A DNA stretch of 35,845 nt from a virus. The stretch's first letter is position 1, and the number at the start of each line of letters is the position of its first letter. The stretch is taken from IMG/VR virus record IMGVR_UViG_3300028590_000709, positions 1 through 35,845 of that record; one strand, 5' to 3'. The notes under the pieces were generated by a model, which saw nothing but the letters and a program-made list of their open reading frames with translations, made no database searches and was not told the origin of the DNA. Made by a program: the position numbers and the translations under genes. Positions 4,440 through 10,837 of the stretch are shown here, piece after piece.

Positions 4440-4473
4440 CGGTCAGGTAGGCAAAGAGGCCGATTACTGACCG
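4440..4473. repeat. Inverted repeat at the 3' end of VR3
   Basis: CGGTCAG (4440-4446) and CTGACCG (4467-4473) form a perfect inverted repeat with a 20-nt loop, placed exactly like the one at VR1. It includes the last codons of the VR3 gene, its stop, and part of the leader of the next gene. VR2 lacks the outer arm. Confidence 0.5.
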
Positions 4474-4868
4474 ACGCGGCGCACGGCCAACGCGAACCCG
4501 TGGTAGTCGCGGCGGCCGTAGTTGACGTAGCCGTAGTTGAAGTCGACGTACCACGCGGACGCCGAGGACCAGGCGCACAGGTCGCTGGTCCAGAACCAGC
4601 CGCCCTTGATGTCGGGGAAGGTGTGGGTGTCGATGGCCGGGTCGAACTTGGTGATGTCGACCAGCGTCAGCAGCTCGGCGCTGGTAGGCAGGCGGAAGCC
4701 ACCGCCGTCGTGCTCGACTGCGGCGCAGGCGTCGATGGCCTGCTGGTGTTCATAGCGGCCGGCCAGCGGCGTGCGCAGCCACTCCAGGCCGGTGGTCGTG
4801 TCGACGACGGTCAGGCTGGTGGCGGCGTCGCCGGTGGGGTAGGTGAAGCGGGCTTCGGCATTGGACAT
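4464..4868 (-). CDS. DUF1566/Lcl-domain variable protein 3 (DGR target, VR3)
   Basis: This 134-residue protein is almost entirely a DUF1566 domain: VVDTTTGLEWL at 21-31, GFRLPTSAELLTLVD at 57-71, PAID at 77-80, and WFWTS at 91-95. Its variable repeat (residues 99-134) is the most Tyr/Asn-rich and therefore probably closest to the unmutated template. It is the first gene after the strong leftward promoter, with GGAGA 6 bases before ATG 4868. It stands 3.3 kb from the other two targets, so it would be a remote target of the same DGR. No signal peptide or tail-fibre fusion is visible. Confidence 0.88.
   Translation of the reverse strand: MSNAEARFTYPTGDAATSLTVVDTTTGLEWLRTPLAGRYEHQQAIDACAAVEHDGGGFRLPTSAELLTLVDITKFDPAIDTHTFPDIKGGWFWTSDLCAWSSASAWYVDFNYGYVNYGRRDYHGFALAVRRVGQ
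4467..4574 (-). repeat. DGR variable repeat VR3
   Basis: The 108-bp repeat has constant ends identical to VR1 and VR2. The variable codons include three AAC or CAC and several TAC and GAC, all ending in C. It keeps more adenines than VR1 and so may have undergone fewer rounds of retrohoming. Confidence 0.88.
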
Positions 4869-4924
4869 GGCGCTCTCCGGATGAAGGGAGGGCGCCGGCG
4901 GGTCAGTGCTGGGGCCGAGGGGTG

Positions 4925-5000
4925 CGGCCTTTCAGCGGCCGGAAGGGGGTCCGGCAGGGTGGCGACCCGCCGGTCGCCCGCCAGCTGGTGGGCTGGCGGG
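4925..5000 (-). promoter_or_regulatory. Structured leader of the PL transcript (two abutting hairpins plus a third)
   Basis: The predicted PL transcript begins near 4998 and immediately contains a 9-bp hairpin (CCCGCCAGC 4977-4985 with GCTGGCGGG 4992-5000). The next is a 7-bp hairpin (GGCGACC 4961-4967 with GGTCGCC 4972-4978), and further on a 5-bp hairpin (4925-4941). None is followed by a U-run, so they are not ordinary terminators. Two abutting stem-loops at the very 5' end recall the put antitermination RNAs of phage HK022. Confidence 0.4.
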
Positions 5001-5004
5001 ACGG

Positions 5005-5034
5005 ACGATAAGACGCCTTAGCGTTACATGTCAA
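5005..5034 (-). promoter_or_regulatory. Leftward early promoter PL
   Basis: On the minus strand a perfect TTGACA (5029-5034) is followed after 18 bp by TATCGT (5005-5010), which matches four of six consensus -10 bases. It points at the VR3 gene and the whole leftward operon. Two operators overlap it. Confidence 0.65.
5009..5022. promoter_or_regulatory. Operator OL1
   Basis: TAAGACGCCTTAGC lies between the -35 and -10 of PL. It matches 13 of 14 bases of the operator at 5945-5958. It fits the consensus nAAG-4N-CTT, so it is probably bound by the repressor dimer. Confidence 0.6.
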
Positions 5035-5045
5035 GAGGGCTTAGC
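5032..5045. promoter_or_regulatory. Operator OL2
   Basis: CAAGAGGGCTTAGC overlaps the PL -35 element. It matches 11 of 14 bases with the site at 5923-5936 and lies 23 bp centre-to-centre from OL1, about two helical turns. Confidence 0.55.
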
Positions 5046-5057
5046 ATTTGCCCGCAG

Positions 5058-5417
5058 TTAGCGCGCGGCGGGCGTATCCGGCGGGTCGCATCCCTCCTGG
5101 ACGCACTGCTCCAAAGTGACAAAGTGGTCGTGCAAACGCTCGACCAGCTCGTCGTCGAGCGAGGAGATGCTGGCCGCGTCGTGGTTGTCCAGGAATCGCT
5201 GGATTTCCCGCGTCCAGCCGTACCAGATCGCAATGCGATTGACATTGCGAACTCGTCGAGCGCGCGGAGAGGTGTCGTGATCGGGGAGCGGGTCGTTCTC
5301 CGCGAACGCCTGGTAGCGGCGCCAAGCATCCGTCTCTTCAACAGAAGGCGCCACGGTGGTTTGAGGCACGGCTTCGCTCAGCAGTTGCCGAAGGCGACTG
5401 ACCTTCTCACGCGACAT
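5058..5417 (-). CDS. Protein encoded downstream of the repressor, unknown function
   Basis: This is a 119-residue, acidic, mostly helical protein without a recognised domain. It starts at ATG 5417, with a purine-rich GGGGA about 6 bases upstream, 21 bp after the repressor stop. It is therefore likely co-expressed with the repressor in the lysogen. Such lysogen-expressed partners can be superinfection-exclusion or defence proteins, but nothing in the sequence shows that here. No terminator separates it from PL. Confidence 0.7.
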   Translation of the reverse strand: MSREKVSRLRQLLSEAVPQTTVAPSVEETDAWRRYQAFAENDPLPDHDTSPRARRVRNVNRIAIWYGWTREIQRFLDNHDAASISSLDDELVERLHDHFVTLEQCVQEGCDPPDTPAAR

Positions 5418-5438
5418 GGACTTCCCCTTTGGTGGCGC

Positions 5439-5894
5439 TTACGCCGCCGCTGCTTGGACGAAGCGCAGCACCTTCGCCCGTTGCATTCCCTCGATGAGCA
5501 GATCGTGTGCGAGAAGCGTGACTTCTGCTCGTTTTGCGGGTGGCAACTGCAGTCCTCGCTCGTCAAGGACTTCCGCTACCAGCTGGAAAGCGACTGTCCA
5601 TTCTTCGAGTTGCACCGGTTGAGATTGATATGACGCCTGCGGCTCGGCGATCGACCTGGCGTCCGCAGTCCATGGTTCGGGCTGGCCGGTAAGCAACTGA
5701 TGACCGCTTAGGTCCACGGCGTTAGCGATCGCGAACAACTGCGCTGCCTTGACGTGATCCGGCAGAACGCGGTCGTGCATGTAGTTCCCGACCGTCTCGG
5801 GGGAAGTTCCCGCCCTGCGGGCCAGTTCGGCCTGAATGAGACCCTTCCGCTCCATGGCGGACCTCAGGCGGCTTCCTATGGTGGGCTTCGTCAT
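5439..5894 (-). CDS. Prophage repressor (HTH, CI-like)
   Basis: This is a 151-residue protein with an N-terminal XRE-type helix-turn-helix: IGSRLRSAMERKGLIQAELA at 6-25, then RAGTSPETVGNYM at 27-39. The C-terminal half is helical and lacks the Ser/Lys dyad of S24 self-cleaving repressors, so induction must use another route, such as an antirepressor. It is divergent from the Cro-like gene, with three operators between the two starts, and two more lie at the leftward promoter. The site at 5898-5911 lies directly against its own start, suggesting autoregulation. Confidence 0.85.
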   Translation of the reverse strand: MTKPTIGSRLRSAMERKGLIQAELARRAGTSPETVGNYMHDRVLPDHVKAAQLFAIANAVDLSGHQLLTGQPEPWTADARSIAEPQASYQSQPVQLEEWTVAFQLVAEVLDERGLQLPPAKRAEVTLLAHDLLIEGMQRAKVLRFVQAAAA

Positions 5895-7497: not shown

Positions 7498-9903
7498 ATG
7501 GCAGTCAACTACGACGACGTCCTCGAGCAACTGCGCGGCTTCGGCCTGCTGATCGACCACCTGGATACCAGCGGGCGCATGATCCGCGTGCGCACCGAAG
7601 GCGGCGGTCGCGAGAAGCGTGGCTGGTACACGCTCCACGAATTCGCACCGCCGGGCGGCGACGTGCTGATCGTCGGTACGTACGGCATCTGGCACGCGAA
7701 CGACAACGGCGCGCAGAAGGTGGAGCTGCGGAAGCGCGATCGCGAGTTCACCGATGAGCAGCGCGCCGCCCTGACGAAGCGTCTTCGCGAGGATCGCGAG
7801 CGCGCCCGGGCTGAAGAGCGCCGCCGGCACGAAGCCGCCGCCCGCCACGCCCGCACAATGTGGTCGCGCCTGGTCGTCGACGGCGAGGCCGAGTACCTGA
7901 AACGCAAGGGCGTGCGTGGCCACGGCCTGCGCTACTCGCCGAAGGGTGCGGCCGTGGTGCCGGTGCTCGATGCCGGCGGCGGCATGCACGGCCTGCAACT
8001 GCTGCGCACGAAGCAGGAAGCCGCCGAGCAGCAGAAGCCCGAGAAGGAATTCTGGCCGGCCGGCCTGGCGAAGAAGGGCCACTTCCACCTGATCGGCTCG
8101 CCCGACTGGCTGATCCTGGTGGCCGAGGGTTACGCCACCGGCGCCACCCTGTACGAGGCCACCACCTATCCCGTCGCCGTCGTATTCGACGCCGGCAACA
8201 TCGACGGGGTCTGCGCCGCGCTGCGCAAGCAGTACCCACGCGCGCGGCTGCTGATCTGCGCCGACGACGACATCCTGGCGCGGCACAAGAAGTGCGGCAC
8301 GCGCTTCATCCTGGACGATCACCCGGCCACCTGCCCGGAGTGTGGCGAGGAGCATCGGCTCACCAACGCCGGCGTGGCCGCCGCGTCGGCCGCGGCGCTG
8401 GCGCACAATGGCGCTTGGCTTCTGCCCAGGTTCGAGGACGAAGCTGCGCGCCGCGACAAGTTCCTCGAGCGTGGCCACAAGGTCAACGACTTCAACGACC
8501 TCTACCAAGCCGAAGGCTTGCACGTGGTCCGTACGCAGGTCGAAGCCCGCCTCACGGATCTAGCGTGGGGCCGGCCCCAGGCGCCGCGCGTCTCCATCAC
8601 CACCGGGGGCGCGGGGGACGCGCCGTTGCGCCCGGTCGAATCGAGTCAGGAACTTCTGTCGCGGTTCTCGCTGGTGGCCGGGCAGGGCGGCACGGTGTTC
8701 GACCGCCAGGAGCATTGCCTGATGTCGCTGTCGGACATGCGCGACATGTGCCTGCGGAAAGACGTGCACCGCGACTGGCAGGAATCGCCCAGGCGCCGCA
8801 TCGTGCGCGTGCGCGAAGTCGGCTTCGACCCGGCCGGCGACGACCCCAACATCACCTGCAACCTCTGGGCTGGCTGGCCCACCACGCCCCGACCAGGCAA
8901 CTGCGAAAAACTGCTGCAGCTGCTGTGGCACATGTGCAGCGCCGATCGCAACGCGACGGAGCTATACCACTGGGTGCTGAAGTGGGTGGCCTATCCAGTC
9001 CAGCACCCAGGCGCCAAGATGAAAACCACTCTGGTGCTACATGGTCCGCAGGGCACTGGCAAGAACATGTTCTTCGAGGCGCTGATGGGGATCTATGGCC
9101 AGTACGGCCGGATCATCGACCAGTCCGCAATCGAGGACCGCTTCAACGACTGGGCCAGCCGCAAGCTGTTCCTGATCGCCGACGAGGTGATCGCGCGCTC
9201 GGATCTGTACCACGTCAAGAACAAGCTCAAGGCCTTCATTACGGGCGAGTGGATCCGCATCAACCCGAAGAACATGGCGGCGTACGACGAGCGGAATCAC
9301 GTGAACATCGTGTTCCTCTCGAACGAGGCAATGCCGGTCGTGCTTGAGGAGGATGATCGCCGGCACGCCGTGATTTGGACGCCGGAAAAGCTGTCGGCCG
9401 AGTTCTACCGCGCCGTGCTGCAGGAGCTGGCCGACGGCGGCGTGGCCGCGCTGCACAACCACCTCCTGTCACTGGACCTGGGCGACTTCGGGCCCGGCAC
9501 GCTGCCGCCGCACACCGAGGCGCGCGACGAGCTGATCAGCCTGGGACTGGATACGCCGCTGCGGTTCTTCGACGAGCTGTACGGGCAGGAGATCCACAGC
9601 ATCAAGCCAAGACCCGGCCTGACCGAGGACTGGTACGAGGTCTACAAGGTCTGGTGCCACCGCGCCGGCACGCGCGCCGCGCCGTCATCGAAGTTCGTCA
9701 ATGCGCTAGTGCGCAAGCGAGGAGTGGCCCCACCGAAGAGCAACCGCAAGCGCTACTACGTCAACCAGGAGCAGCGCGGCCCCCATTCGTTCCTGATGCT
9801 GGGACTGACGGCGCCGGAGGATGGCAGCAGCGAGCCCATCTGGTTCGGCGAGCAGGCGGTGCAGGTCCGCGCGGACCTCAACGCCTATAAGGGGGCCGCA
9901 TGA
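7498..9903 (+). CDS. Primase-helicase (toprim plus SF3/D5-like ATPase)
   Basis: This 801-residue replication protein has an N-terminal part with a toprim domain: LILVAEGYATGATL near 204-217, and LLICADDD near 250-258. Next is a zinc-knuckle-like CG...CPECG segment near 265-283, then a C-terminal helicase of the D5/VirE-like type. The Walker A motif is GPQGTGKN (about 514-521) and the Walker B-like motif is LFLIADEV (about 557-564), followed by an FLSNE sensor. It would synthesise primers and unwind DNA for phage replication. It starts right after a long inverted repeat that may control translation. An iteron array, perhaps its origin, follows at once. Confidence 0.9.
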   Translation: MAVNYDDVLEQLRGFGLLIDHLDTSGRMIRVRTEGGGREKRGWYTLHEFAPPGGDVLIVGTYGIWHANDNGAQKVELRKRDREFTDEQRAALTKRLREDRERARAEERRRHEAAARHARTMWSRLVVDGEAEYLKRKGVRGHGLRYSPKGAAVVPVLDAGGGMHGLQLLRTKQEAAEQQKPEKEFWPAGLAKKGHFHLIGSPDWLILVAEGYATGATLYEATTYPVAVVFDAGNIDGVCAALRKQYPRARLLICADDDILARHKKCGTRFILDDHPATCPECGEEHRLTNAGVAAASAAALAHNGAWLLPRFEDEAARRDKFLERGHKVNDFNDLYQAEGLHVVRTQVEARLTDLAWGRPQAPRVSITTGGAGDAPLRPVESSQELLSRFSLVAGQGGTVFDRQEHCLMSLSDMRDMCLRKDVHRDWQESPRRRIVRVREVGFDPAGDDPNITCNLWAGWPTTPRPGNCEKLLQLLWHMCSADRNATELYHWVLKWVAYPVQHPGAKMKTTLVLHGPQGTGKNMFFEALMGIYGQYGRIIDQSAIEDRFNDWASRKLFLIADEVIARSDLYHVKNKLKAFITGEWIRINPKNMAAYDERNHVNIVFLSNEAMPVVLEEDDRRHAVIWTPEKLSAEFYRAVLQELADGGVAALHNHLLSLDLGDFGPGTLPPHTEARDELISLGLDTPLRFFDELYGQEIHSIKPRPGLTEDWYEVYKVWCHRAGTRAAPSSKFVNALVRKRGVAPPKSNRKRYYVNQEQRGPHSFLMLGLTAPEDGSSEPIWFGEQAVQVRADLNAYKGAA

Positions 9904-10244
9904 CCGGGGGTGTGCAGGGTGTGCAGCCACGCGTGCAGGGTAGAGCCTCGACCGAAAGCCATACGGCGCACGGCTTGTGCAGAGTGTGCAGGGTGTGCAG
10001 GCCCTATATAGGCGCGTGCGTGCGTGAGCGCCACTCGCTTCGGAGAACGCGCAGTGCTGCGCTCACGCGTATATACCCCCCTGCACACCCTGCACACCCT
10101 GCACACGCCGCGTCACCGCTGCGTTTCGTCATTTCGTCACCCTGCACACCTCCCTGCACACCCCGCACAGGGGGTCGCGCGCGCGCGCGGATGACTCTCC
10201 TGCTTGCGCTGAAAGGAAGGGAAGAGGGAGGCAGCAGGGCATGA
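9900..10244 (+). CDS. Doubtful ORF across the iteron palindrome
   Basis: This is a 114-codon frame that overlaps the primase stop by ATGA at one end and the terminase start by ATGA at the other, as real genes do in this phage. Its sequence is dominated by the repeat array (VQGVQ, CRVCRVC, HPAHPAH), and both strands are open because the region is palindromic. I think the DNA repeats are the functional part, and a protein is less likely. Confidence 0.25.
   Translation: MTGGVQGVQPRVQGRASTESHTAHGLCRVCRVCRPYIGACVRERHSLRRTRSAALTRIYPPAHPAHPAHAASPLRFVISSPCTPPCTPRTGGRARARMTLLLALKGREEGGSRA
9911..10170. repeat. Inverted TGTGCAG iteron array: candidate replication origin or packaging site
   Basis: The left arm has TGTGCAG at 9911, 9920, 9976, 9985 and 9994, at a 9-bp period within clusters. 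The right arm has the inverse CTGCACA at 10081, 10090, 10099, 10142 and 10154. Between them are TATATA on both sides and the inverted pair CGTGAGCG/CGCTCACG (10023-10030 and 10060-10067). The whole forms a long imperfect palindrome around 10045. A (CG)n tract follows near 10176-10189. It sits between the primase-helicase and the small terminase gene, so binding by either protein is plausible. Confidence 0.65.
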
Positions 10245-10837
10245 GCGGCGCGAACGAGGTCACCGCCAAGCAGCTGGCCCACATCCTGGGCGTGGGCCCT
10301 TCCTACATCACCCAGCTCAAGGGAGAGGGGCGGCTAGTGCGCACGACCGATGGCAAGCGCTACCTGCTGGCAGAGAGCCGCAGGCTGCTGGCCGAGACCG
10401 CCGACCCGGCCAAGGCGGGTGTGGCGGCGCGCCACGCGGCCGCACGTGGCGCTGCCGTCGCCCTGGAAACGTCGTCGACGGCGAGCGAGCCGGATGACGC
10501 GGAGGCGCCGCTGGCGCCTGCCCAGGACGACCCTTTGGCCAAGCGCCGCGCGCTCGCCCAGGCACAGGCCGAAGAGGCGAGGGCACGCAAACTGCTGCGC
10601 GACGAGGCGGTCGAGCTGGGTCAGCTTCTGCCGGTCGACGAGGTGCGCTCCGCGATCGCCGATGCCGTCACCGCCATGCGTGCCGACCTGGACAACCTGC
10701 CGGCGATCCTGGCGCCGCAACTGGCGGCTGAGCAGGACGAGGACCGCGTTCGCGTGATCCTGCGCGACGCCATCGAACACATCGAGCGCGAGTTCGCGCG
10801 CAAGGCCGCTGCCATCGCGAAGGAAGAGACGCGATGA
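10241..10837 (+). CDS. Terminase small subunit (Nu1-like)
   Basis: This is a 198-residue protein with an N-terminal winged-helix DNA-binding part: VTAKQLAHILGVGPSYITQL at residues 7-26, then GRLVRT. A long helical middle and C-terminus (about 90-198) should oligomerise and hold the large subunit. Nu1-type proteins recognise the packaging site and direct the large terminase. A strong purine-rich ribosome site precedes ATG 10241. Its stop overlaps the large terminase start by ATGA. It is slightly longer than lambda Nu1 (181 residues). Confidence 0.88.
   Translation: MSGANEVTAKQLAHILGVGPSYITQLKGEGRLVRTTDGKRYLLAESRRLLAETADPAKAGVAARHAAARGAAVALETSSTASEPDDAEAPLAPAQDDPLAKRRALAQAQAEEARARKLLRDEAVELGQLLPVDEVRSAIADAVTAMRADLDNLPAILAPQLAAEQDEDRVRVILRDAIEHIEREFARKAAAIAKEETR

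Follow-up and report, generated by a model that had tools for sequence, protein, structure and literature searches.

What is the role of a 337-bp stretch, filled with short opposed repeats, that lies between a primase-helicase gene and a small terminase gene of a virus? The DNA in question (hereafter the window) is the IMG/VR virus record IMGVR_UViG_3300028590_000709, 35,845 bases in length and possibly a fragment, whose gene content comprises regulators, a CII-like gene, the primase-helicase (7498-9903), the repeat array, the small and large terminase subunits, and the portal. An initial annotation suggested that the array could be the origin used by the adjacent primase-helicase, a cos/cosB-like site bound by a Nu1-like subunit, or both. 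Elsewhere in the window, the ORFs 65-526, 527-1348, and 4464-4868 (minus strand) share a common WSSASAW...GFALAVRRVGQ ending and by eye form one repeated family, which we take to be possibly DUF1566-like.

The layout described initially was borne out. Ten exact TGTGCAG units form two opposed groups, on the plus strand at 9911, 9920, 9976, 9985, and 9994 and on the minus strand at 10081, 10090, 10099, 10142, and 10154, with six more copies scattered elsewhere in the 35,845-base window. Two degenerate units (9932-9940 and 10161-10169) bring the total to twelve, and the array, spanning 9911-10169, consists of TGTGCAGGG-type units arranged as three outer and three inner iterons on the left (forward) and three inner and three outer iterons on the right (reverse) (Table 1). 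The 9-bp period ascribed to the clusters holds within them, with 12-bp steps in places (9920 to 9932, 10142 to 10154). The paired blocks noted around the centre are TATATA at 10005 and 10070, and CGTGAGCG at 10023 with CGCTCACG at 10060, and the inverted-repeat arms 9971-10001/10080-10110 are 94% complementary. The array exceeds chance: when 198 tiles of 360 nt across the window were scored for arrays, that at 9901 came first (172; second 143, median 57). Three alternating purine-pyrimidine tracts, at 10012-10026 (15 nt, in the centre), 10064-10076 (13 nt), and 10176-10189 (14 nt), are possibly Z-DNA-prone. GC skew is uninformative in the window, with no clear switch where the array lies.

The gap at 9904-10240 had been described as lacking a convincing gene, and we agree. 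The ORF at 9900-10244 that runs through the array matches phrog_13749 (1.8e-6), but was rejected as a coding gene, as it translates the repeats and looks spurious; phage S1 gp2 (2454-2804 in locus L001) and Mcat1 AKI27006.1 likewise lie over an array of this type, and such small ORFs, though annotated or family-listed, are probably not genes. Searched by blastn, the array gave fragment matches only, to six Moraxella phages and four Cutibacterium phage records, the latter looking coincidental. The Cutibacterium match (phages P106I/L/M/C), 33 nt at 97% identity to the right arm of the array, falls in a minor tail gene and is probably a coding repeat.

Table 1. Coordinates of the array and of the neighbouring genes in the window
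Feature	Position	Strand	Evidence or remark
Toprim + SF3 (DUF5906/D5-like) primase-helicase, putative initiator; 801 aa	7498..9903	+	phrog_2249 3.3e-159; Pfam DUF5906 5.1e-23
C-terminal winged-helix domain (about residues 695-775), putative origin-binding	9580..9822	+	AF2 pLDDT 91.8; word covariation
R750 codon; R752 codon	9745-9747; 9751-9753	+	Within winged-helix part of primase gene
Left outer iterons 9911-9919, 9920-9928, 9932-9940 (last degenerate)	9911..9940	+	
Left gap, outer/inner iterons	9941..9975	.	IHF consensus in some relatives, absent here
Left inner iterons 9976-9984, 9985-9993, 9994-10002	9976..10002	+	
Centre, 76 bp	10003..10078	.	TATATA 10005-10010 and 10070-10075; inverted arms 10022-10031/10059-10068
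Right inner iterons 10079-10087, 10088-10096, 10097-10105	10079..10105	-	
Right gap, inner/outer iterons	10106..10139	.	
Right outer iterons 10140-10148, 10152-10160, 10161-10169 (last degenerate)	10140..10169	-	
CG alternating tract, 14 nt	10176..10189	.	Past right arm
Small terminase subunit, neighbour outside the module	10241..10837	+	phrog_57 2e-22; no tracking of word

The same blueprint is found behind the primase in relatives, which were gathered by primase sequence alone and not by the array. Primase hits came from 243 loci; in 238 a hit went past residue 600 and a stop was present, and removal of identical copies and of loci with <300 nt downstream left 165 distinct loci. Absence of the repeats from close relatives had been named beforehand as counting against a role for the array; in all 165 loci the array is present, the 360 nt at the primase stop outscoring all six of their own shuffled versions. 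The score exceeds 99% of 990 shuffles in 157/165 loci, the three lowest being L088, L161, and L168. Two opposed blocks fit 1790 of 1865 sites (96%, versus 75% for random orientation). Steps of 9 and 12 bp dominate, a 9-bp step occurring on both sides in 142/165 loci, and in the typical geometry (e.g. L142) units start at 0, 9, 21, 33, 65, and 74 on the left and at 0, 9, 18, 61, 73, and 82 on the right; variants occur. Six out of six distant annotated phages (Halomonas H4907, Pseudomonas PG1, Turba, pAN, SC_9, and Moraxella Mcat9) carry the same plan after the primase, written in other words. A sample of the order Burkholderiales gave a match at 1e-100 or better in 9 of 399 genomes.

For a held-out set, 116 further loci yielded 33 that were usable and new, 30 under 97% identical, and 19 that passed the register rule. 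In four of the 30, array scores within the 360 nt examined stayed at or below 105: the array is displaced in L362 and L357, L262 contains an N run, and L299 has just a degenerate pair. About 550 nt lies between the primase and an intact array in L362 (about 2370-2930) and L357 (about 4900-5470), and because these arrays lie that much further downstream, strict primase-array adjacency is not essential.

The centre was considered as an AT-rich unwinding element, a reading rejected on an AT fraction of 0.380 versus 0.401 for the left arm over 131 loci. The count of alternating purine-pyrimidine runs drew on the 124 loci whose centre measures 50-110 nt (84 non-redundant): a run of at least 12 nt is present in 76/84 centres, against 0.2% of 924 coding windows, and the median run of 16 nt in the 124 centres compares with a mean of 10.8 nt in their dinucleotide shuffles. 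In Mcat9 the alternating tract is missing. The gaps between inner and outer iterons carry a perfect IHF consensus, which we take to be WATCAANNNNTTR, in 28/108 loci (e.g. L142, L084, and L156; 0.2 expected), in a lineage-restricted manner; the window itself has zero perfect sites. In left gaps the consensus is on the minus strand in 17/98 and on the plus strand in 0, and in right gaps on the plus strand in 10/102 and on the minus strand in 1, a mirror-image placement that fits a bend joining outer to inner iterons.

If geometry is kept while spelling changes, which protein does the spelling follow? The iteron word was analysed in 108 loci, left after requiring at least 600 aa (160 of 165), a passing word-register score (143), and non-redundancy at 97%. 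These 108 loci use 41 different 9-mers, among the words in relatives being TGTGCAGGG, TGTGCGGTA, TGTGCCGGG, TGTGAGGCA, TGTCGAGGG, and TATACCGGG. Word distance correlates with distance over primase residues 695-775 once helicase distance is removed (partial r 0.321; reached in 0/999 permutations), versus a partial r of -0.032 for the helicase given winged-helix distance, and in a scan of the primase with 40-residue windows the word signal peaks at 721-790. Joint regression on 102 of the 108 loci gave 0.411 for the winged helix (0/499 permutations as high), 0.049 for the helicase (160/499), and -0.035 for small terminase residues 1-60 (352/499), which add nothing. Judged by sequence covariation, the spelling of the word changes with the winged-helix domain at the C-terminus of the primase; neither the helicase part nor the small terminase shows this relation. 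A second, smaller word-following bump was seen at primase residues 361-430 (partial r 0.18-0.19).

The winged helix is confidently predicted (AF2 pLDDT 91.8), and the model of helicase plus C-terminal part, which places this domain behind a D5/SF3 helicase as in SaPI/PICI proteins, matches the primase-helicases of phage NrS-1 (Z 26.6) and SaPI5 (Z 17.8); structure alignments covered the window together with 58 of the other 107 non-redundant loci. Taken alone, the winged-helix domain gave zero Foldseek matches at E 0.001 or better, and its best VIA matches reached Z 5.2 or lower, including RFX 1dp7 (Z 4.9) and Cdc6/Orc1 2qby (Z 4.6). A profile search against PDB sequences returned 7ola at E 0.26 amid chance matches, and the P4 alpha origin-binding domain was absent among the fold and sequence matches listed.

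Within the domain, two arginines stand out. Across 650 protein columns and nine word positions, the top two pairs are R752 with position 2 (0.703) and R750 with position 5 (0.695); lower-scoring pairs involve columns beyond this domain, such as H572 and R567 with position 2 (0.52). When position 2 is G, R752 is present in 96/99 loci, and in 0/9 when it is not (counts 96/3/0/9); when position 5 is C, R750 is present in 95/96 loci, and in 3/12 otherwise (counts 95/1/3/9). Replacement of C5 by A pairs with S or P at 750 (the TGTGAGGCA group) and by G with Q (the TGTGGGGTA group). The exceptions are L099, L160, and L239 for position 2 and L006, L034, L038, and L185 for position 5; the words of L062, L099, and L124 were re-registered from their nearest relatives. 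Independent contrasts, few in number, on a tree of the helicase part agree in 7/10 cases for position 5, none opposing (p 0.016), and on average in 4.6/5 for position 2, again with none opposing (p 0.06); the latter miss p 0.05 because they are too few. The held-out loci point in the same direction, with counts of 16/2/0/1 at position 2 (Fisher 0.16) and 13/2/1/3 at position 5 (Fisher 0.037). Outside that count, L357, with its displaced array, has W at 752 and word units TATACCGGG, and likewise L102. Two residues apart on one strand of the modelled wing, R750 and R752 should face the same way, and arginine-guanine contacts would account for arginine loss when a G:C pair is lost. The change of word spelling with a few primase amino acids suggests a readable protein-DNA code.

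Known systems offer a frame for these observations. SaPI Rep helicases recognise the origin directly downstream of their own gene via a C-terminal domain and appear to bind as two hexamers. PMC6092414 describes PICI origins as an AT-rich region between two iteron sets and an EcCICFT073 rep-ori segment that supports plasmid replication. According to PMC6092414 and PMC7581432, the SaPI/PICI rep-ori systems (SaPIbov1, SaPI5, EcCICFT073) share with our loci a D5/SF3 primase-helicase gene with the origin directly on its 3' side (in the window the first iteron lies 8 bp past the stop), two iteron sets around a centre (in the window and in relatives), and a C-terminal DNA-binding domain. Unlike them, the loci here belong to complete tailed phages that encode terminase and portal and are no satellites (in the window, large terminase and portal come after the array), with an alternating purine-pyrimidine tract in the centre instead of an AT-rich one, a palindromic 3-4 + 2-3 plan of about 12 iterons, and IHF sites in some lineages. 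The array may work like a SaPI/PICI origin by analogy; it is not classed as one because the AT-rich centre is missing and the element is a full phage. The form had been called unrecognised among named phage origins, which does not stand insofar as SaPI/PICI origins have the same plan (PMC6092414), and stands insofar as the AT-rich centre is not common to both.

PMC7581432 reports on a related helicase, SCCmec Cch2. Its C-terminal domain, taken by itself, binds direct repeats that lie downstream of the Cch2 gene, but just three 5-nt iterons are described there. Streptococcus thermophilus phage Sfi21 has a 302-bp non-coding element with origin features in its replication module, according to PMC6356513 (citing Foley 1998). 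PMC2647930 deals with plasmid-like islands, and the text of PMC4619438 on the Mcat phages contains neither 'repeat' nor 'primase'. A literature search over titles and abstract openings of open-licence PMC articles returned no report of these phage arrays or of the wing code, which is weak evidence of novelty. Satellite phage P4, with its alpha protein, ori, and crr, likewise has a primase-helicase initiator binding iterons, and uses two separated iteron sites. In SV40 and papillomavirus origins, which work in a similar manner, opposed sites recruit a double hexamer of an SF3 helicase. Those helicases bind via an N-terminal domain (PMC7581432), in contrast to the C-terminal domain here.

Taken together, we put at about 85% the probability that the array is a phage replication origin, with the primase-helicase from the adjoining upstream gene as the protein that recognises it; of the proposals made initially, this one is well supported by comparison across the 165 loci and by covariation of the word with the C-terminal domain. 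Covariation supports binding of the primase-helicase to the iterons, and analogy and position suggest initiation there. The self-loading primase-helicase would dock on the array as two opposed hexamers, the centre, with its TATATA boxes and long alternating purine-pyrimidine tract, would melt or distort, and the enzyme would go on to unwind and prime bidirectionally; IHF probably introduces a bend between the outer and inner iterons of each arm in some lineages.

A regulatory or copy-control site for the primase-helicase (crr- or incompatibility-like), with replication starting elsewhere, is an unlikely alternative that draws on the same covariation, which speaks for binding and not for initiation, and on the precedent of the P4 alpha protein, which uses a second site, crr. 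Against it, the paired-iteron pattern (5 places) is confined to the single array in the window record, itself possibly a fragment, and the position of the array matches that of tested SaPI/PICI origins (PMC6092414). We regard as very improbable the proposal of a cos/cosB-like packaging site, at which the small terminase would bind the iterons and the large subunit would cut nearby. The binding sites of lambda cosB are likewise repeated and spaced. The array directly precedes the small terminase gene here, and by position a linkage to packaging would be conceivable, that gene lying within 1.5 kb in 129/147 loci; the idea that terminase adjacency could decide between cos and origin was dropped, the gene staying nearby in most relatives. 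However, the word follows the primase domain and ignores the small terminase, on which ground, an indirect test of repeat recognition, cosB was rejected as the main role; in the six distant phages the gene next to the array is not a small terminase, with antitermination, hypothetical, holin, or endonuclease genes in the vicinity, and five annotated genes separate array and terminase in Mcat1. Low-complexity or coding repeats without function would agree with the PHROG match of the array-spanning ORF, but are hardly credible given that a change of word shows up in register in every copy with the geometry intact, that arrays score far above shuffles, and that the word covaries with the primase.

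Reading the array as a replication origin places many phages with DUF5906-type primases beside the SaPI/PICI mode of replication start, and gives a simple origin-finding rule for such phages: look behind the primase gene. The chances seem to us even that these loci represent a widespread phage replicon class, in which a fixed, sequence-independent blueprint is combined with a word that has been switched many times with a small wing code, giving mutually exclusive origins. The blueprint in that case would comprise outer iterons, an optional IHF bend, inner iterons, and an alternating purine-pyrimidine melting tract, followed by the mirror image. Pressure to switch words might then come from satellites or from co-resident prophages, which could otherwise make use of the same initiator. 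The many natural word switches make SF3 initiator specificity readable and testable residue by residue, and the matching phage may be countered by cloning the array as a word-specific decoy, a use reported for the Sfi21 origin.
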